Assembly (NCBI GenBank): GCA_025153755.1
Contig: JAOALD010000001.1
Coordinates: 558,001-622,000, forward strand
Length of the DNA: 64,000 bases
Reading direction: 5' to 3'
From: SAR92 clade bacterium H921
GTDB lineage: Bacteria; Pseudomonadota; Gammaproteobacteria; Pseudomonadales; Porticoccaceae
Shown here: positions 44,753-61,544 of the stretch, in pieces
Layout: each line of letters opens with the position of its first letter
How positions within the stretch are numbered: position 1 is the stretch's first letter
The notes under the pieces: model-generated
What the model saw: the letters and a program-made list of their open reading frames with translations, nothing else
What the model was told of the DNA's origin: nothing
The model's database searches: none
Made by a program: the position numbers and the translations under genes

Positions 44753-45105
44753 CAGGCGGTAATAGCTAAGGCTGAACTTGAACCATCGCCCCCAGTATCT
44801 GGTAAACCTGTTAGCTCAGTATAGGAGCTATTTCGTCTATACCTTTATCATCAAATAAACCAAATAGAATATTTGCATTGAAGAGCAACATAAGAGCGCA
44901 AAAAATAAGACCACCCCATAGAAATAACTCCCCTACCAAAAAGTCTAAATCACCCATAAATACCATTACTTTGATTTATGACAGTGAATCGCCACCTCTC
45001 TCTAGCAAGCCCGGTAATTTTGACTATATTACTAATAAAAACGATAAGGTAATAAATACAGTACGAAAGTAGCAAAAAATTTATTAATTAAAAAGGAACT
45101 TAATT
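44753..45105. other. Intergenic start of accessory region
   Basis: About 350 AT-rich bases with no complete gene. Its right part holds a 72-bp exact copy of a segment of the hydrolase gene (separate entry). The rest shows no recognisable gene. Confidence 0.5.
44995..45066 (+). repeat. 72-bp direct repeat, copy 1 (hydrolase gene fragment)
   Basis: Identical over 72 bases to 46960-47031, which lies inside the exported hydrolase gene and codes for the loop with its predicted catalytic Asp. Three more bases match just before it, after one mismatch. It keeps the coding frame but stops two codons later, so it is a fragment, not a gene. Confidence 0.97.
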
Positions 45106-45912: not shown

Positions 45913-47796
45913 ATGAAAAATTTAACGTCAGTTTTACTGCTGTTCTGCTTATTAAGCAGTTTCAGCTACGCTGAAATCTTTATGCCTCTTAAAGTGGGCG
46001 ATATTACAGTTATGATTCCAATCGGCCCAATACAGGAAAGTGAGGATGAGGAGTCCAGTAAGACTCCCTTGGGCAAAGATGATGATAACGATGGTGTCAG
46101 AGATGATGTTCAGCAAAATATTGTTGCTAAGTACGGCACCAATTCACCCATCGCTACATGGTCACTGGTTATAGCACGAAAGTACCAGAAAATCTTATCT
46201 GGCAATTTAACTGCTCAACAGATTAATCAGCAGATAGCAGATGCCGAGCATCTAAATTCCTGTATACAAAATACCACAGGCACTAACACCGATGGACTAG
46301 GTTATGTTGTGCCACTTCAGTTAAACACGGTAGAGCGCAGTAGAGCCTATTTAACAGCTGCGAGAGATGCCTACCATGAAGCAGGGCCACCCAGTTACAA
46401 AAGTTGTGGTAATAGTGCAACAAGTAAATCGCAGTTGACAAAGGAGGCAAGCAAAATCAATGCCCCGGATTTAAGTGACTATGATGTTTACTTTATTAAT
46501 GGAGTAAATACTAATGAGGATAAAGCAGTTAAAATGAACGAAAGACTGCAAACTCTTATCAAGAAAAATCCAGTCGAGTTACTTTGGAATAAAAACGATA
46601 CCCTTAAACAGTACTTTGATCTGTATGTTGAAAAAATTGGTGAGGTAAATGTTGATAAAACTGATGTGCCAGATTTTTGGAACTTTGTCCTGTTAGGTTC
46701 TGTAAGCCCTGCTATTTCTGGTGCTATTTGGTGGGCTACCCAACGCTGGATGGAGCCAGACCGCGATGTTGGCTATTGGTCTGAACAAGACCTAGAGGAG
46801 ATGATTAAGCGTATAAAAGAATCTCTGGAGAATAAACGTAAAACTTTGGTAGTCTCACATTCTCAGGGTAACTTCTTTTACCGCAATATCCATCAAGCCA
46901 TAGACCAATGGGACACTGACAAAACTAAACAGTGTTTTGCCGGTATTGGTTTTGCGCCGCCTCTCTCTAGCAAGCCCGGTAATTTTGACTATATTACTAA
47001 TAAAAACGATAAGGTAATAAATACAGTACGAGACTTCTGGGGCAACACCCTTGGCGGAAATGTAACAGTGCCGGAGGGCTATAACGATAATAAAAATGGG
47101 CATGGATTGCTTGAAACATACCTTGACCACCCCGCGCCTCTCAAGCGTTTTGAAACGGAGTTAAAACAAGCGGTGAAGCAAATAGATGAGAGTTGCACAG
47201 GCTGTGCAGAACCGGTTGGTAAAAGTGGTCGACAAGGTAAACATCAATACACCTATGCACTCAAAGATACATCTGCTCATAAAGTTGAGATTTCCTTTGA
47301 AGCCTACTCTGTTCCCGACAAAATTCGCATTACCGCAAATGGTAAAACTATTGCCAAAACCAATGGTTTGGTCAGTGGCTTTCATCAATGGCAAATAGAC
47401 TATGACCCTAAAGTGCATGGAACTGAATTTATTGCTCATGTGGATGCACCAGACTCTGCTACTAAGTGGAAGCTATGTATTGATTGCGAAGGGTCAGATT
47501 GTGGTAGTCAGATTGAAAGAAAAAAGGTCAGTTATCTGATTAGGGATGCTAACGATATTCACACAAAATGGGTTTGCGGTAATCACAGGATTGATGGTCA
47601 ATCAGTCCCTGAGTCTGGAGCAGTACAACTAAGCAAGGGGCAGCACAAGTTTTCTGCAGATTGTTGGTGTACTTCAAGACATTTTTGTGGCCGTATCTTT
47701 GGTAATCCAAGTCTTCGTTTAATATCAGCATCTTGCGGTTCAGAAGAGGAATGTAGTTTTGCCGATAAACGAGATGTTATGTTTGAGGTGTATTAA
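45913..47796 (+). CDS. Large exported alpha/beta-hydrolase with Ca-binding segment
   Basis: A 627-residue protein with a signal peptide (to about residue 20). A calcium-type acidic loop DDDNDGVRDD lies at about residues 55-64. The hydrolase core has a lipase-like nucleophile elbow SHSQGN with Ser317. Asp366 (NKNDKV) and His397 (NGHGLLE) stand in the right order to finish a triad. About 230 C-terminal residues with many cysteines form unrecognised modules. Lipase or peptidase activity is likely; the substrate is unknown. Confidence 0.78.
   Translation: MKNLTSVLLLFCLLSSFSYAEIFMPLKVGDITVMIPIGPIQESEDEESSKTPLGKDDDNDGVRDDVQQNIVAKYGTNSPIATWSLVIARKYQKILSGNLTAQQINQQIADAEHLNSCIQNTTGTNTDGLGYVVPLQLNTVERSRAYLTAARDAYHEAGPPSYKSCGNSATSKSQLTKEASKINAPDLSDYDVYFINGVNTNEDKAVKMNERLQTLIKKNPVELLWNKNDTLKQYFDLYVEKIGEVNVDKTDVPDFWNFVLLGSVSPAISGAIWWATQRWMEPDRDVGYWSEQDLEEMIKRIKESLENKRKTLVVSHSQGNFFYRNIHQAIDQWDTDKTKQCFAGIGFAPPLSSKPGNFDYITNKNDKVINTVRDFWGNTLGGNVTVPEGYNDNKNGHGLLETYLDHPAPLKRFETELKQAVKQIDESCTGCAEPVGKSGRQGKHQYTYALKDTSAHKVEISFEAYSVPDKIRITANGKTIAKTNGLVSGFHQWQIDYDPKVHGTEFIAHVDAPDSATKWKLCIDCEGSDCGSQIERKKVSYLIRDANDIHTKWVCGNHRIDGQSVPESGAVQLSKGQHKFSADCWCTSRHFCGRIFGNPSLRLISASCGSEEECSFADKRDVMFEVY
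46960..47031 (+). repeat. 72-bp direct repeat, copy 2 (inside hydrolase gene)
   Basis: Exact copy of 44995-45066. Here it is in its natural coding place, residues about 350-373, including the predicted catalytic Asp366. Confidence 0.97.
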
Positions 47797-48255: not shown

Positions 48256-48547
48256 TCTGAAGAATCAAGGGGTCAGAGTAGTTTGATTCACAAGGACATC
48301 ACCCTAACGGACATATGCTAGACACTCTTTTAGTTTGGGTCTGTCTTGCGTGGTGCAAGAATCAACCAAAGCCTTTGAGGGAGATCCCACCTATGCAGAT
48401 TGTTGTCGACTCTGGGGCTGTGGAGATTTTTCCAACTCCTTAGGTCGGGGATTATTAGCACTTTCAGAACTTGGGTATAACAAGCTATAATAAAGGTTAT
48501 ACGATATGCTCAATATAGTTAAAATCTGGCTTTGAGGAATGATGCTT
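48256..48547. other. Gap before the peroxiredoxin-like gene
   Basis: About 290 bases containing the REP-like hairpin and a second GAATCAA at 48359 beside a TCTTGC/GCAAGA inverted repeat. No gene is seen. Confidence 0.4.
48262..48289. repeat. REP-like hairpin (GGGGTCAGAGT motif)
   Basis: GAATCAA and TTGATTC form a 7-bp stem around a 14-base loop holding GGGGTCAGAGT. This sequence type is common in repeats tied to REP-associated tyrosine transposases. No transposase is near. Confidence 0.55.
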
Positions 48548-49306
48548 ATGCAGTTGGGATCTTTTCTAGGGATCATTGCCCTAGCTTTATCACTGGGTGT
48601 TACAGCTTTTTGGTTTACTCTGGCACGACGGCTTGCGTTGCCGAACAATAGAACCGGTTTTGTTCTTTTATGGCTAGTATCTGTTGGTGTCGGAGTTATT
48701 GCCCTTATTGAGGGTACAAACTTTATTGGTGGGTTTCCTCCAGTTGTTGCCATTTCAATAAGTAGCCTACTTATCTTCACGGTCTATGTAAGCCCCCAAA
48801 CAGTTGAATCTAGCTATATCATCAAGGTCGGCGATTTCATTCCATCCTTTCAGGCCACTGACGATAAAAATCAGATTTTCGATTCTATAAGTTTAAGGGG
48901 GCATCTGGTACTCATTAAATTTTTCCGAGCGCATTGGTGACCCTATTGTATCGGCGAATTGCGCCGATTGAACGAGCTCCGTGCCGAGATCGATAAACTA
49001 GATATAAAAGTAATCACCGTAAGCACTGATTTGCCACACCAAATCGCAGAAAAGAGACATCTTCATGGAGTTCAGGCAACAATGCTCTCCGATTACGCTC
49101 TTGAAGTGATCGATGCCTTTGGATTGAGGAACACCGCATTCCACAGTGGATTTGGCCTTGATGGGGGAGTCGACGCATTGCCCGTCCCTGCGACTCTTCT
49201 TTTCGATAGCGATGGGAAGCTAGTCTGGATGGATCTTTCCAAGGATTATCAGCGCCGGTCAGATCCGTTAGTCGTGCTAAACGCCATTAAGATTCATTTT
49301 TGCTAG
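48548..49306 (+). CDS. Membrane-anchored peroxiredoxin-like protein with in-frame TGA (probable selenoprotein)
   Basis: The frame reads 130 codons, then TGA at 48938-48940, then 121 codons to TAG at 49306. Residues 1-85 hold about three membrane helices. The rest is an AhpC/TSA thioredoxin-fold domain. Around the stop the reading is VLIKFFRAHW-TGA-PYCIGELRRL, so the TGA stands exactly where family members have the first Cys of WCPYC. Reading it as selenocysteine gives Sec131-x-x-Cys134 in a 252-residue protein. A 7-bp hairpin follows (separate entry). The ATG at 48548 lies nine bases after GAGGA. A simple nonsense mutation is the alternative. Confidence 0.75.
48950..48968 (+). promoter_or_regulatory. 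Putative bacterial SECIS hairpin
   Basis: ATCGGCG (48950-48956) pairs perfectly with CGCCGAT (48962-48968) around loop AATTG. The loop begins 17 bases after the TGA, inside the known bacterial SECIS range. The loop has one G, at its end. If the last G-C pair opens, the loop starts with G, closer to the usual rule. Confidence 0.55.
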
Positions 49307-49466
49307 CTTGCTGTTCCATCGCATCAAAAGCGCTACCTAAATCAGCACGCTCGTTTTTACGATGGTATAGCCATCCAGCTTTACTGCCGAAAGCTATGCT
49401 GCTGCTCCAATTACTAAATTGATTGCTGTGATTAGAGGTTTCCCAGCTACCATATTTTCCATTATG
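49287..49466 (-). pseudogene. Possible gene remnant, unknown
   Basis: A 59-codon open stretch on the minus strand with protein-like composition (NWSSSIAFGSKAGWLYHRK, ending EQQASKNES) but no usable start. It overlaps the peroxiredoxin-like stop. It may be the C-terminus of a lost gene. I do not recognise the family. Confidence 0.3.
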
Positions 49467-49715: not shown

Positions 49716-50000
49716 TCAAAAACATCCACTTTCAAATTTTATTCCAAACGTTGAGGCGACCTGTTTTTTGTAATCAAAGTCGAAGTAAAACTCAGCAAAT
49801 GCAGTTTTCATCAAGAAGACATTCTTTCCTGATTTCTTTTTTATGAACTCCCCATCAATTTCGAAGGGGAGACCATCCATAAAAAACAATTCACCATTGT
49901 AAGACCATTTATACAAATGGGGATTTACAGGTATATCTCTGATTAGGGTGTGATGATGACTAAGGGTCGGTTTGGAGTATTTTGAGGTATATATGAGCAT
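49716..50000 (-). CDS. Hypothetical protein
   Basis: A 94-residue frame rich in Tyr, Phe and Lys (WSYNGELFFMDGLPFEIDGEF). Composition looks protein-like, but there is no clear ribosome site and no family I know. It sits between the hsdM remnant and the island's left repeat. It could be a small real gene or a fragment. Confidence 0.35.
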   Translation of the reverse strand: MLIYTSKYSKPTLSHHHTLIRDIPVNPHLYKWSYNGELFFMDGLPFEIDGEFIKKKSGKNVFLMKTAFAEFYFDFDYKKQVASTFGIKFESGCF

Positions 50001-50355
50001 ACAAGGGAGTAATGAAAAGTTCCCTTTTTGTTCCCTTTATCTTTTACTTTATCTATAAAGAAAAATAGACTAAATAAGCAATTGTTTTTAATGGAATTTT
50101 GGTAGCTACGGGTGGACTTGAACCACCGACCCCAGCATTATGAATGACGCTGAGAAAACGTAACTCACTGTTTTTACTCAAAATATGGGCGCTCATAGCA
50201 GATTTAAGTCCCACAAGGCCTCATTAGATCTCATTACACTTCCGCAAAAGTCCCCCACTATCATTTACTATCGAAACTGCGATATTCCGTGTTGCCTCTA
50301 ATAAGATGCTAACATGCTCTAATCACATATGAATAAGTAATAGCGAGGGCAGGGA
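50001..50355. other. Left end of the tRNA-Met island
   Basis: About 350 bases holding the left att repeat (50100-50146) and a putative arm-type site near 50238. No gene is seen. Confidence 0.5.
50100..50146 (-). repeat. Island attachment repeat, distal copy (tRNA-Met 3' half)
   Basis: Perfect 47-base copy of 61468-61514. It covers the tRNA-Met sequence from the CCA end to the anticodon stem. The match ends sharply on both sides. This copy lacks the tRNA 5' half, so it is the displaced end left by site-specific integration. Confidence 0.93.
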
Positions 50356-56146: not shown

Positions 56147-57034
56147 TTAAGTTCTATTTGAGATGATATGGCGCTCTATATCAGAAGCCACATGCATACT
56201 TTCGTGATGGGGCTGATTTTTATGGCAAAGAGCGCAGAGTACAGACAGGTTGGACCAGCTATTATCTCCCTTCACACCATTAATATGATGGACATGCAAT
56301 CCCTTCTTCATCTGGCTCATATTTACCCCGCAGCTTGAGCATTCCCACCCACATCGTTGTCGAAGCTCAGTCGATATTTTCGGAAAGTCATAAGTGTAGC
56401 CGCCCCGCGGCTGCGATGCTGCGGTATGCTTCGGGGTGAATTTCATAACGTTAAATGTGCCATCGTTTTCATCTAAGTAAGTCTGCAATGAGAAGTTTTT
56501 GACAGCCTCCACTCGATCAACTTTAGGTTGCCTAAGGCTAAAGTCGTGGTATATGAGCTGATCCAAGCAATTTTGGCATGGAGCAAGTCTTATATTGTCT
56601 AAGATGTGATGCTCTCCATGTAGCGAAATTTGATCTGGGTCTCGCTCGCTTGCCTCTACCTGAAACAGTCCTGACTTAGATCTTGAGAGAACATACCGTG
56701 CAAACCTACCTCTCTTTTCCATCCTGACAAGGACATCACACCAAGTAAAGTGGAAGCGGGGGGCGCTCTGTTGAGGAAAATCTGCCTCCAAATCGAGTTT
56801 ACTATTACTGGAATTAAAAATATAAAGGATTGCAAGAGCATTACCTTTATAAGTTAGGAATGATCCTACTGTCTTGATATCCTCTCGTTCAACAATGAGC
56901 CCCTCATTCTTCTCAAGCTGGACAACTACCTTCTCAAAGTCGGACAGCGTAGCCCCAAACTCGAGCTGAGGTAGATCCGAACCAAGACGAGCCCTAAGCG
57001 AATCAAGCCGCTGAAAGCTATCAGAGAGCTTCAT
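56147..57034 (-). CDS. HNH endonuclease of the Zorya-like operon (ZorE-like)
   Basis: A 295-residue protein. The C-terminal part is an HNH domain: CGWECSSCG, LHVHHINGVKGDNSWSNL, VLCALCHKNQPHH. A Cys pair in the middle (CQNCLDQL) may bind another zinc. The N-terminal 180 residues are unrecognised. It overlaps zorB by 14 bases, so it is translated with it. In Zorya type II, zorA and zorB are followed by zorE, an HNH nuclease; this gene stands in that place and is probably the same or a variant. Confidence 0.75.
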   Translation of the reverse strand: MKLSDSFQRLDSLRARLGSDLPQLEFGATLSDFEKVVVQLEKNEGLIVEREDIKTVGSFLTYKGNALAILYIFNSSNSKLDLEADFPQQSAPRFHFTWCDVLVRMEKRGRFARYVLSRSKSGLFQVEASERDPDQISLHGEHHILDNIRLAPCQNCLDQLIYHDFSLRQPKVDRVEAVKNFSLQTYLDENDGTFNVMKFTPKHTAASQPRGGYTYDFPKISTELRQRCGWECSSCGVNMSQMKKGLHVHHINGVKGDNSWSNLSVLCALCHKNQPHHESMHVASDIERHIISNRT

Positions 57035-57716
57035 TACGCTTCAACTCGGTAACACGGTTAAGAAGTTTTTCCTCTGCACGAGTTTTCATTCTAAATTCAA
57101 CTCTGCGAGACTTGTCATAAAGTTCTGTATTACCAGCTTTGATGAGATCACTCGATGACATTCCGTGAGCGGTCATACTTGAAAAACTCCAATCTAGATA
57201 GTCAGAATTTGATGCGATACTGGGGATATTCAGGGCATAGCTCATAACGTTTCTGGATCTATTTTGAGATAGCTCAGTATTGTATATGTACCCACTGAGC
57301 GGAGTATCAGTCCTCTTTATTGTAGAATCGGTATGCCCTTCGATTCTTAGCTCACTTATAGATTCGTTGTACTCCCATACAACTTCCATTAGCCGAGGTA
57401 TAAAATTGTCTAGCAGGATCCTAAAACTTGGGGAGAGGCGCGAGCTCGCCCGCTCAAAGCTCGAATCGCTTTGAAAGCGGATTAACAAGCCACCCTCACA
57501 TATTGACATATTCCAGCGGTCGATATCTTGAGAGAATTCCGCTACTAGATCATCACAAATGTCATCGCGAACATCACTCACTTCATCAAACAATTTATTC
57601 ACGTTCTCAATATATATCACTGCGATAAACAGGAAAATCATCATTAAGCCCGCCATCATATCTGCAGCAGATATCCATGTATCATCATCATTAGAAGTTG
57701 TAGATAAAAATTTCAT
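57021..57716 (-). CDS. zorB: ZorB-like MotB/OmpA-domain motor protein
   Basis: A 231-residue protein. One N-terminal membrane helix carries the motor Asp (Asp19 in WISAADMMAGLMMIFLF). The periplasmic OmpA/MotB peptidoglycan-binding domain follows (IEGHTDSTI, LSQNRSRNVMSYAL, KSRRVEFRM). It should assemble as a dimer inside a ZorA ring and use ion flow. It starts 11 bases after the zorA stop. Confidence 0.85.
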   Translation of the reverse strand: MKFLSTTSNDDDTWISAADMMAGLMMIFLFIAVIYIENVNKLFDEVSDVRDDICDDLVAEFSQDIDRWNMSICEGGLLIRFQSDSSFERASSRLSPSFRILLDNFIPRLMEVVWEYNESISELRIEGHTDSTIKRTDTPLSGYIYNTELSQNRSRNVMSYALNIPSIASNSDYLDWSFSSMTAHGMSSSDLIKAGNTELYDKSRRVEFRMKTRAEEKLLNRVTELKRNEAL

Positions 57717-57727
57717 ATATTGACCTA

Positions 57728-59125
57728 TTAATTCCTAGAAATTTTAGAGGTCAGATCAATTATTTTAGATGCAGATTGCTCATAGGTTTCCACGAACCTA
57801 TCTGTTATCGACACTAAATTATTTCCCATCTTATCAAGCGAACGCTGGAGCTGTTCCTGCATTCCCTTATCTAGGGTCTGCAGCGATTGATTCATTAGTT
57901 CTGTATTCTCGGCAAGAGACTGATCAATGCGCGATTTTATATCATTCGAGGTCGACTTCTGGCTCTCACTAAAGTCTTTAACAATTGACTCAACCTCGGT
58001 ACCCACCTTCTTGGTAGATTCAAGGACATTGTCAGCCGCAATATTAAGGCTATCGAGTACACCCTGAAACTTATTTTGCTGCTCAGCATACATTTTTTCA
58101 GAATTTTCAAATGATGAGGCCATTAAATCATTTAGTCCGCCTGTTAGATCCTTTATCGTTTGCTGAGTTTCCATTTGAGAATCACGCATTGAACCAAACT
58201 GCTTGTCGATGACAGATAGCTCATCCTGAATAGATTGCTTTAAACCCTCCGTTAGATTTGTGATTTGTTCTTTAATGGATGGGACTGCGTTTTCAGCATT
58301 TTTCTTCATTTCATCTAAGGATGATAAGCCCTCATATAGCTGACTCATTCTTTGATCTGTTGCTTCAAAAACAGCAGTGATCTTATCCATGTGTTCGGGT
58401 ATTTGTTGGGTCGAACCCTCGATCAGCTGAACACTCTTTTGCACTTCGTCGATACCACTTTGGGCCGAAAGGAAAGCTTCTGTAAGGGCTCTGACCTGCT
58501 CTTTGTGCTCCTGTTGCCACTCTAACTGTGCCCCGACTGCATCATTGAGTTGCTTAAAGTTATCGCCGAATTGCTCTGATATTTTCTCATTAAAGTCTCT
58601 AATAACAGCCTCTAAAGCCTCTACAAGAGCCTTACTGCCGTCCTCAGAAACTTTTTCTGCAAAGTCTCTAAAGTCATTCCTAAGTTTACTAAACTGAGTT
58701 GAAAGACTTGAATCACCTTCGCCCACCAAAGCCTCTCTAACTTGGTTAGTCCCTTTAGTGATTTCTCGTAGTTCTAGCAGTAAGTCTTCTGCAGATGCAT
58801 CATCTACAGATTGGTTGCTTCGTATTGATGGATAAACCATGCGGAAAAAGAGGCTTGCACCGAGTCCAACCACACTGGATAAAAATGCTAATTTTAATCC
58901 GCCTAGGAGTTTTGGAATTGATCCATCCATGTCGAGAACATCAAAAGCCTGAAGTGCTAAAAAGATACCAAGAAAGGTAAAAAATATACCGAACGACGTA
59001 AGGATAGTCGGTCCATTGGAAGATATAGCTGAGAGAGTCTTGCCTTTTGAGTTGATACCAACAAGACATATAAGGAAGGTGATTAATATTACACATACTG
59101 AAATTAGCTGGAGCGAACTGTCCAT
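57728..59125 (-). CDS. zorA: ZorA-like MotA/TolQ/ExbB-family motor with coiled-coil tail
   Basis: A 465-residue protein. The first 105 residues hold three membrane helices with the MotA/ExbB pattern (GPTILTSFGIFFTFLGIFLAL, LGGLKLAFLSSVVGLGASLFF). The remaining 350 residues are mostly heptad-like coiled coil rich in Glu, Gln, Ser and Lys, the cytoplasmic tail typical of ZorA. It is the first gene of the operon zorA-zorB-HNH-GIY-YIG. It may also be called a MotA/TolQ/ExbB channel protein. Confidence 0.85.
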   Translation of the reverse strand: MDSSLQLISVCVILITFLICLVGINSKGKTLSAISSNGPTILTSFGIFFTFLGIFLALQAFDVLDMDGSIPKLLGGLKLAFLSSVVGLGASLFFRMVYPSIRSNQSVDDASAEDLLLELREITKGTNQVREALVGEGDSSLSTQFSKLRNDFRDFAEKVSEDGSKALVEALEAVIRDFNEKISEQFGDNFKQLNDAVGAQLEWQQEHKEQVRALTEAFLSAQSGIDEVQKSVQLIEGSTQQIPEHMDKITAVFEATDQRMSQLYEGLSSLDEMKKNAENAVPSIKEQITNLTEGLKQSIQDELSVIDKQFGSMRDSQMETQQTIKDLTGGLNDLMASSFENSEKMYAEQQNKFQGVLDSLNIAADNVLESTKKVGTEVESIVKDFSESQKSTSNDIKSRIDQSLAENTELMNQSLQTLDKGMQEQLQRSLDKMGNNLVSITDRFVETYEQSASKIIDLTSKISRN

Positions 59126-59638
59126 GGTTACATCCTAAAGTTTTATCTATTCGTTATTGTATGTCCTTAGATTGCAAATAGGCTACCAAATCTTAGAGAG
59201 AACCCAGAAATAATTAACATATGGCTATGATACCAATGATCTAACCTTTAGCGATGAATCTATGGGGAGTGATCTAACGACTGTTATCCATCTAGCTATC
59301 TCTATTTGTAGATCCTATCAATCGGATAACTCGTGTGTGGGGAAAACTATAAATAATATCTTCCTAAAGTCTCAACCTTCTCTGTTCAGGGCTAGATTAA
59401 GGTTGCTTTTAACTGTATTTTTGTTAAGGTCTTTGACAAGCACCGATTTGATCCAGATTGCGGGGTGCTATATAAGTTCCAGCTAAACCGGACGGTTGAT
59501 GATCTCAACTAGTGAACCCGATTTGGCTCTGCTGGATTGGGTTTTTTGCATTTCATGGGTTGGCTTTCCCTAAAAGCTGGGCATTTGATAACCAGATTGT
59601 GCGCCCGCATTTTGCTAAGCACTAAAGAGGATACTGTT
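59126..59638. other. Divergent promoter region of the Zorya-like operon
   Basis: About 510 bases between zorA (minus) and the small-gene cluster (plus). It should hold both promoters. A 74-codon open frame at 59262-59486 has no protein-like character. The right end contains the first leader repeat. Confidence 0.5.
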
Positions 59639-59644
59639 ATGTCA
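59580..59644 (+). repeat. Duplicated leader, copy 1
   Basis: Sixty-five bases ending in the ATGTCA of the 135-residue gene. It matches 60081-60145 at 61 of 65 positions and includes the ribosome site AAAGAGGATA. All four differences would change an amino acid if translated in the downstream frame, so it is likely a non-coding leader. Confidence 0.93.
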
Positions 59645-60061: not shown

Positions 60062-60080
60062 TAGTCGTCCTTAACGACTA
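60062..60080. repeat. Perfect hairpin between small island genes
   Basis: TAGTCGT and ACGACTA form a 7-bp stem with loop CCTTA, just before the second leader repeat. No T run follows, so it is not a standard terminator. It may be an operator or processing site. Confidence 0.5.
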
Positions 60081-60145
60081 GGCATTTGATAACCAGATTG
60101 TGCGCCTGCATGTTGCGAAGCACTAAAGAGGATAATGTTATGTCA
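60081..60145 (+). repeat. Duplicated leader, copy 2
   Basis: The second copy of the 65-base leader, ending in the ATGTCA of the 59-residue gene; 61 of 65 bases match copy 1. Confidence 0.93.
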
Positions 60146-61467: not shown

Positions 61468-61514
61468 TGGTAGCTACGGGTGGACTTGAACCACCGACCC
61501 CAGCATTATGAATG
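61468..61514 (-). repeat. Island attachment repeat, tRNA-proximal copy
   Basis: Perfect 47-base copy of 50100-50146, formed by the 3' half of the intact tRNA-Met gene. The island lies between the two. Confidence 0.93.
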
Positions 61515-61544
61515 CTGTGCTCTAACCAGCTGAGCTACGTAGCC
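61468..61544 (-). tRNA. tRNA-Met (CAT), elongator
   Basis: 77 bases including the encoded CCA. The cloverleaf is plain: acceptor GGCTACG/CGTAGCT (first pair G-U), D-loop AGCTGGTTAGAG, anticodon CAT at 61508-61510, and T-loop GGTTCAAGTCC. The length and GGCTACG start match elongator tRNA-Met. It serves as integration site for the 11.4-kb island. Confidence 0.96.

Follow-up and report, generated by a model that had tools for sequence, protein, structure and literature searches.

An in-frame UGA that very probably encodes selenocysteine in a membrane-anchored thioredoxin-fold redox protein of a SAR92 clade bacterium

A gene of 252 codons at 48548..49306 (+) of the window, that is, the whole 64,000-nucleotide stretch analysed here from SAR92 clade bacterium H921, carries an in-frame TGA at 48938..48940 (+), and this UGA, at codon 131, very probably inserts selenocysteine (Sec131, written U) at the active site of a membrane-anchored redox enzyme. 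The gene was delimited by translation, by the Pfam domains PF00578 and PF08534 that span the TGA, and by the conservation of the TGA. We hold it highly likely that the gene encodes a selenoprotein, in which UGA131 would be decoded by the SelA, SelB, SelD and tRNA-Sec of the host, with a hairpin downstream assisting. The TGA, its conservation, the machinery and the class of fold are seen in the sequence itself, and from these we infer the actual insertion of selenocysteine.

Reading frame, fold and likely chemistry

The frame 48548-49306 (+) translates into 252 residues with one internal stop, the TGA at residue 131, and terminates with TAG; ATG 48539 and ATG 48542 are further in-frame start candidates. 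The motif around residue 131 is F-F-R-A-H-W-U-P-Y-C, and relatives have Cys codons in this column, which bears out the first-pass annotation that the TGA takes the place of the first Cys of a W-C-P-Y-C motif. Between the TGA and the TAG lie 121 sense codons, a stretch whose chance of staying open at the local base composition is ~0.002. The downstream domain is indeed intact over these 121 codons, as had been proposed: with U written as C, both PF00578 (79.9 bits, cut-off 26) and PF08534 (54.2 bits, cut-off 26.6) match residues 93-236, across the TGA. TGA terminates 5 of the 40 long ORFs in the window, and is thus not simply reassigned. The expected splitting by gene callers was also seen, standard ORF calling giving two ORFs. 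For the window protein and two related proteins (L054 and L058), all the listed matches to the NCBIfam models PrxU, SelL-related, WAxxUGC, Prx-SUH (listed for L058 only), ResA and TlpA fall far below cut-off. Because the ORF call splits the gene and no NCBIfam model covers it, the gene is probably misannotated wherever it is present.

The protein is predicted to consist of an N-terminal membrane part and a C-terminal thioredoxin-fold redox domain (residues 91-252, 48818..49303 (+)) that harbors Sec131 and Cys134. In line with the initial estimate of about three membrane helices, the AlphaFold2 secondary structure places three helices at the N-terminus: helix 1 (residues 3-27, 48554..48628 (+)), which also has a hydrophobic sequence, helix 2 (residues 36-55, 48653..48712 (+)) and helix 3 (residues 63-79, 48734..48784 (+)). 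The fusion had been called unusual, which holds only in part, as a hydrophobic N-terminus is also seen in Cys versions (L059, L061 and L062, by eye). Judged by the positive-inside rule, the family means of charged residues (K+R of 1.85 at the N-terminus and 1.33 in loop 2, with almost no D+E in either; loop 1 and the segment following helix 3 balanced or acidic) lean to a periplasmic redox domain. By contrast, the charges of the window protein itself, with a pair of adjacent Arg residues in loop 1 and no Arg on the opposite side, lean the opposite way, against a periplasmic redox domain.

The three N-terminal helices would hold the product in the membrane, with its one thioredoxin-fold domain bearing the Sec-x-x-Cys pair; UGA131 would be read as selenocysteine with the aid of the hairpin 10 to 28 nt downstream. 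In the mechanism that we infer, its substrate, donor and side of the membrane included, Sec131 would attack a disulfide or hydroperoxide near the membrane, Cys134 would then form a selenenylsulfide to resolve it, and a donor resembling thioredoxin would reset the Sec131/Cys134 pair.

Provided that a selenoprotein is made, there is slightly less than an even chance that it would act chiefly as a peroxidase, with peroxiredoxin chemistry, instead of a thiol-disulfide oxidoreductase of the ResA/TlpA type. Its AhpC-TSA and Redoxin domains point to a peroxidase, as do the closest folds (Bcp, AhpC and AhpE) and the alignment of Cys134 with the conserved Cys of peroxiredoxin 2ywn, with the Glu three residues on being kept. 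However, by profile ResA 4nmu is the top-ranking solved chain (E 1.1e-12), and among the elements of a catalytic peroxiredoxin (TxxC and a later-strand Arg), the Cys is aligned, but Sec131 falls on the Thr of the motif. Moreover, the invariant Pro214 falls on an Arg of 2ywn, which we take to be catalytic, at a position where ResA has a Pro, presumably the thioredoxin cis-Pro. The original label of peroxiredoxin-like accordingly suits the domains and folds, but the active site is equally ResA/TlpA-like.

Conservation of the TGA among relatives

A 97%-identical copy (L053), on MAG contig CAJIZO010000124.1 of an independent assembly, shares the TGA, which makes a sequencing error very unlikely. 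The two copies differ at 19 of 759 bases, and 11 of the 19 differences are synonymous over the whole gene (p 0.0015). After the TGA, 4 of 8 changes are synonymous (p 0.09, not significant), so this pair alone does not decide whether the second half is under constraint.

Within the genus of the window's genome, 26 of 50 genomes, the window's included, have a match at E ≤ 0.001. The full-length TGA form occurs in the window's genome only (1/50), the others being weak matches of 21-36% identity. At the Sec column, 14 of the 15 genus loci checked have Cys codons and one has CGT, the check taking in these 15 and leaving out L043, L039-L042 and L044-L052. The locus with CGT (Arg) at the codon aligned to Sec131 is a genus-level Cys paralogue (L026). 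One of the genus matches (L043, 24% identity) has one internal TGA and one TAA.

At the level of the order, 54 of 390 genomes, including the window's, match at E ≤ 1e-12, and eight of them have an internal TGA (the window's, G325, G410, G394, G301, G268, G088 and G130); the TGA protein of G130 is shorter and different. The latter, at L076 1471-2019 (+), is a short AhpC/TSA protein with W-U-P-Y-C over which no NCBIfam model exceeds its cut-off, and its genome has selA and tRNA-Sec. All 20 order-level loci checked that are free of TGA have TGC or TGT at the site. In the class, four of 369 genomes match the profile at 1e-25, the window's among them, the remaining three carrying Cys at this position.

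The richest source of relatives is the family of genome G268 (f41), in which 33 of 140 genomes match at 1e-25, in 36 places. A TGA is present in 35 of the 36, the last being a fragment that starts downstream of the site, and it was verified at the same codon in 30 of the 30 places checked, five TGA-bearing places and the fragment lying outside this check. Together with the window, L053, L057 and L060, this gives 34 distinct genes with a verified TGA. L060 is cut by a contig end and stands outside the full-length alignment, in which all 33 homologues, the window included, have TGA at this codon, with the frames open on both sides. Decay of the relatives elsewhere in the gene, which would have told against a selenoprotein, was therefore not found in these 33, and together with the TGA in the independent assembly they uphold the view that a random nonsense change is unlikely. 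The suggestion to look for Cys at Sec131 in homologues gave a divided answer: TGC or TGT in the distant relatives, but TGA throughout the close group. The close group thus appears to have selenocysteine in every verified copy, with Cys confined to more distant relatives. On the tree, Sec and Cys rows separate at a support of 70/85 only, with long branches. With Sec in its close members and Cys in its distant relatives, the group is well suited to testing why bacteria retain selenocysteine.

Among the 33 homologues, the mean pairwise protein identity is 0.57 before the TGA and 0.72 after it, with a median dN/dS of 0.08 for the first part (from 30 usable pairs) and of 0.07 for the second (from 51 such pairs). 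A true stop is unlikely, because the second half is better conserved than the first.

Hairpin, selenocysteine machinery and gene mobility

A hairpin that we propose as the SECIS element, at 48950..48968 (+), was identified by complementarity, folding and covariation. Its arms (48950-48956 and 48962-48968) are perfectly complementary over 7 bp and enclose a 5-nt loop, AAUUG (48957-48961). The perfect 7-bp stem is as first described, but the distances of 10 and 17 given then are ordinals, and the actual spacing from the TGA is 9 nt to the stem and 16 nt to the loop. In the bSECIS model, the stem has 4-16 bp, the apical loop 3-9 nt, the UGA-loop distance is 16-37 nt and the MFE is up to -7.5 kcal/mol (PMC13188914, Fig. 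2), and a G occupies one of the first two apical-loop positions (PMC13188914). According to the parts of this review available to us, some bacterial elements do not conform to the model (PMC13188914). The window's hairpin lies within the ranges for stem, loop size, spacing and energy (7 bp, 5 nt, 16 nt and -11.6 kcal/mol), but its loop lacks the early G. The likeness to bacterial SECIS elements claimed at the outset thus extends to everything but this guanosine. The first two loop columns read AG in 31 of 34 copies and AA in the window, L053 and L057. At the gathering threshold, Rfam gave three matches in the window, with no SECIS family among them.

The 46 nt around the hairpin fold at -11.6 kcal/mol (z -1.24), as well as 22 of 200 shuffles do, and the 45 nt after the TGA have a z of -1.87, with 12 of 200 shuffles as good. 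Fold energies are unremarkable in most of the copies tested; as a proof of a SECIS element they were rejected as weak, and covariation and co-occurrence were used instead. Among 34 copies (32 distinct), 95.1% of the pair cells are standard pairs, eight cells carry changes in both partners and the covariation score amounts to 0.218, the latter two values being reached by none of 500 shuffles. Slid controls gave no double changes. Two further measures, pairs changed on both sides and further pair types, are not above the shuffles (359/500 each). The main switch is between Gly GGC plus Arg CGC/CGT and Ala GCC plus Arg CGG, in which the Arg change is silent. The hairpin shows compensatory changes, which rest on few independent switches on the tree, the counts being inflated by relatedness. 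This stem is not shared by L057 and L060.

In the genome of the host (2.57 Mb, 13 contigs, 98% complete), there are selA (579 bits), selB (398 bits), selD and tRNA-Sec, each over its cut-off. The genes selA, selB and that of tRNA-Sec are adjacent to one another, with selD elsewhere on the same contig, and ARAGORN names the tRNA tRNA-SeC with anticodon tca. A search for selA, selB, selC and selD, whose absence would have told against a selenoprotein, therefore found all four. Moreover, the gene and selA tend to occur together: in f41, 29 of the 33 genomes with the gene have selA, compared to 20 of the 107 without it (Fisher p 6e-13, uncorrected for relatedness), and in the order sample 7 of 8 TGA genomes have it, compared to 5 of 46 others (p 3e-5). 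ARAGORN also named a tRNA-SeC (tca) in G325, G394, G410, G301, G088 and G130. By coordinates, 8 of the 29 f41 genomes with both have the gene and selA on a single contig, within ~15 kb in seven (G325, G394, G875, G904, G867, G825 and G842) and far apart in G896.

The family members with the gene and without selA are G859, G870 and G899 (83, 79 and 89% complete) and G268. In G268, rated 100% complete in 6 contigs, selA and tRNA-Sec were looked for and not found, the single match over the tRNA-Sec cut-off being a tRNA-Ser. Its TGA gene (in L110 5700-9937) lies between an IS91-type transposase and a tRNA-Lys, and the three other listed members of its genus have no match to the gene. We take G268 to be a case of recent acquisition or of a remnant, which still counts against a simple story. 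In the window's own genus, selA is absent from all three congeners tested for it, so the lineage of the window may have gained the selenocysteine machinery as well. G268 and this genus may show whether selenoprotein genes travel without their machinery, and what becomes of the SECIS element then.

Sequence comparison of the window with 3,952 bases of L053 revealed a sole common block, at 48358..49366 (94.8% identity), which comprises this gene and little else, and the flanks of which are unrelated. The window/L053 pair lies on a long branch (0.65) inside the Sec clade of f41, beside L132 (support 94/83), although the window's genome is from another family. Horizontal movement is likely, because the gene is found in only one of 50 genus genomes and nests within the clade of another family; the lineage of the window probably acquired it in this way. 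The bin of L053 is labelled Flavobacteriaceae, and the stretch compared has 46.8% G+C. An integrase beside the gene in L053 is not claimed: decayed recombinase-like pieces were seen by eye after a tRNA-Leu, and none of the three matches Pfam. Viral or plasmid carriage was rejected for lack of a close viral or plasmid relative. No relative was found in viral_contigs by two scans at the protein level and one by DNA pattern, one phage record matches at 26% identity, and 52 plasmid records match, none over 80% of the query and, among the best 20 of the 52, at no more than 32% identity.

In three relatives, a second gene with an in-frame TGA adjoins this one (L107 13089-14372 (+), L108 9313-10578 (-) and L106 up to 10722 (+)). 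It has W-U-P-P-C, with AhpC/TSA and DsbD_N domains in this order, and probably encodes another selenoprotein. It is conceivable, though we advance it only tentatively, that a Sec-only membrane redox group, often near selA and beside the second TGA gene in these three relatives, has spread as a small mobile module, sometimes perhaps with the selenocysteine machinery and sometimes without it, as a selenium-dependent membrane redox relay traded between genomes.

Elsewhere in the window, three genes at 56147-59125 (-) match Zorya type II models: ZorA2 (57728-59125 (-), 252 bits), ZorB2 (57021-57716 (-), 206 bits) and ZorE2 with HNH (56147-57034 (-), 196 bits). The 47 bp at the 3' end of a tRNA-Met gene (61468-61544 (-)) are repeated exactly at 50100-50146, and the two repeats look like the ends of an integrated island with the Zorya genes, just beside the selenoprotein gene. 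A match to Rfam HPnc0260 at 49988-50137 (59.4 bits, threshold 59) overlaps the tRNA-Met-derived repeat and is probably spurious. A 68-bp repeat (93% identity) occupies 59577-59644 and 60078-60145, with an Rfam SAM-V riboswitch match barely over threshold (41.2 vs 41 bits) on the former copy. A 77-bp direct repeat (98.7% identity) lies at 44990-45066 and 46955-47031, the second copy being inside an ORF (45913-47796) without a Pfam match.

With the family a genuine selenoprotein family, the window's copy might nevertheless be poorly translated horizontal cargo whose hairpin has lost the loop guanosine. The loop AA in place of AG, the presence of the gene in 1 of 50 congeners, the long branch and the lack of detected selA and tRNA-Sec in G268 would fit, but the full machinery in the window's genome, the whole-gene excess of synonymous changes against L053 and the perfect stem make this improbable. 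Less probable still is a true stop in a pseudogene or two neighbouring fragments, which the two called ORFs and the indecisive window/L053 pair would allow, but which is contradicted by the TGA in all 33 aligned homologues with the rest open, by the better conserved second half and by the co-occurrence of selA. A selenoprotein gene remains our preferred reading.

Comparison with known redox proteins and selenoproteins

ResA and TlpA have a membrane-tethered thioredoxin-fold domain, the tether being a single helix, compared to three in the window protein. Sec131 and Cys134 align with the C-x-x-C of ResA, and Pro214 with its Pro; the window protein differs in having Sec for Cys and in scoring below the NCBIfam cut-offs for both ResA and TlpA. 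The eukaryotic selenoprotein U (PRXL2) also combines a Prx-like domain, a UxxC motif and a hydrophobic N-terminus.

Prx-like UxxC selenoproteins have been published from Sargasso Sea and GOS data, and are covered in a 2026 review (PMC13188914), Table 1 of which names a 'Prx-like thiol:disulfide oxidoreductase' (PF00578) and a 'Redoxin family protein' (PF08534). As far as the parts of these sources at hand describe them, they share with the window protein a PF00578/PF08534 domain with UxxC, and are set apart by its three N-terminal membrane helices. The fusion domain of GOS Prx-like 3 is described with three conserved Cys residues, whereas the window's group is without a conserved Cys before Sec. 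The cd02970 peroxiredoxin-like family protein in the same table (PMC13188914) is likewise Prx-like with Sec first in its motif, which is given as UxxS, compared to UxxC in the window protein. The word 'transmembrane' is absent from the text of the review as available (PMC13188914), and a literature search for a membrane-anchored, Sec-containing bacterial peroxiredoxin selenoprotein found no paper. Compared to the published Prx-like UxxC proteins as they are described in the parts of the sources available, the new features here are the anchoring in the membrane, a close group with Sec only and the indications of mobility.
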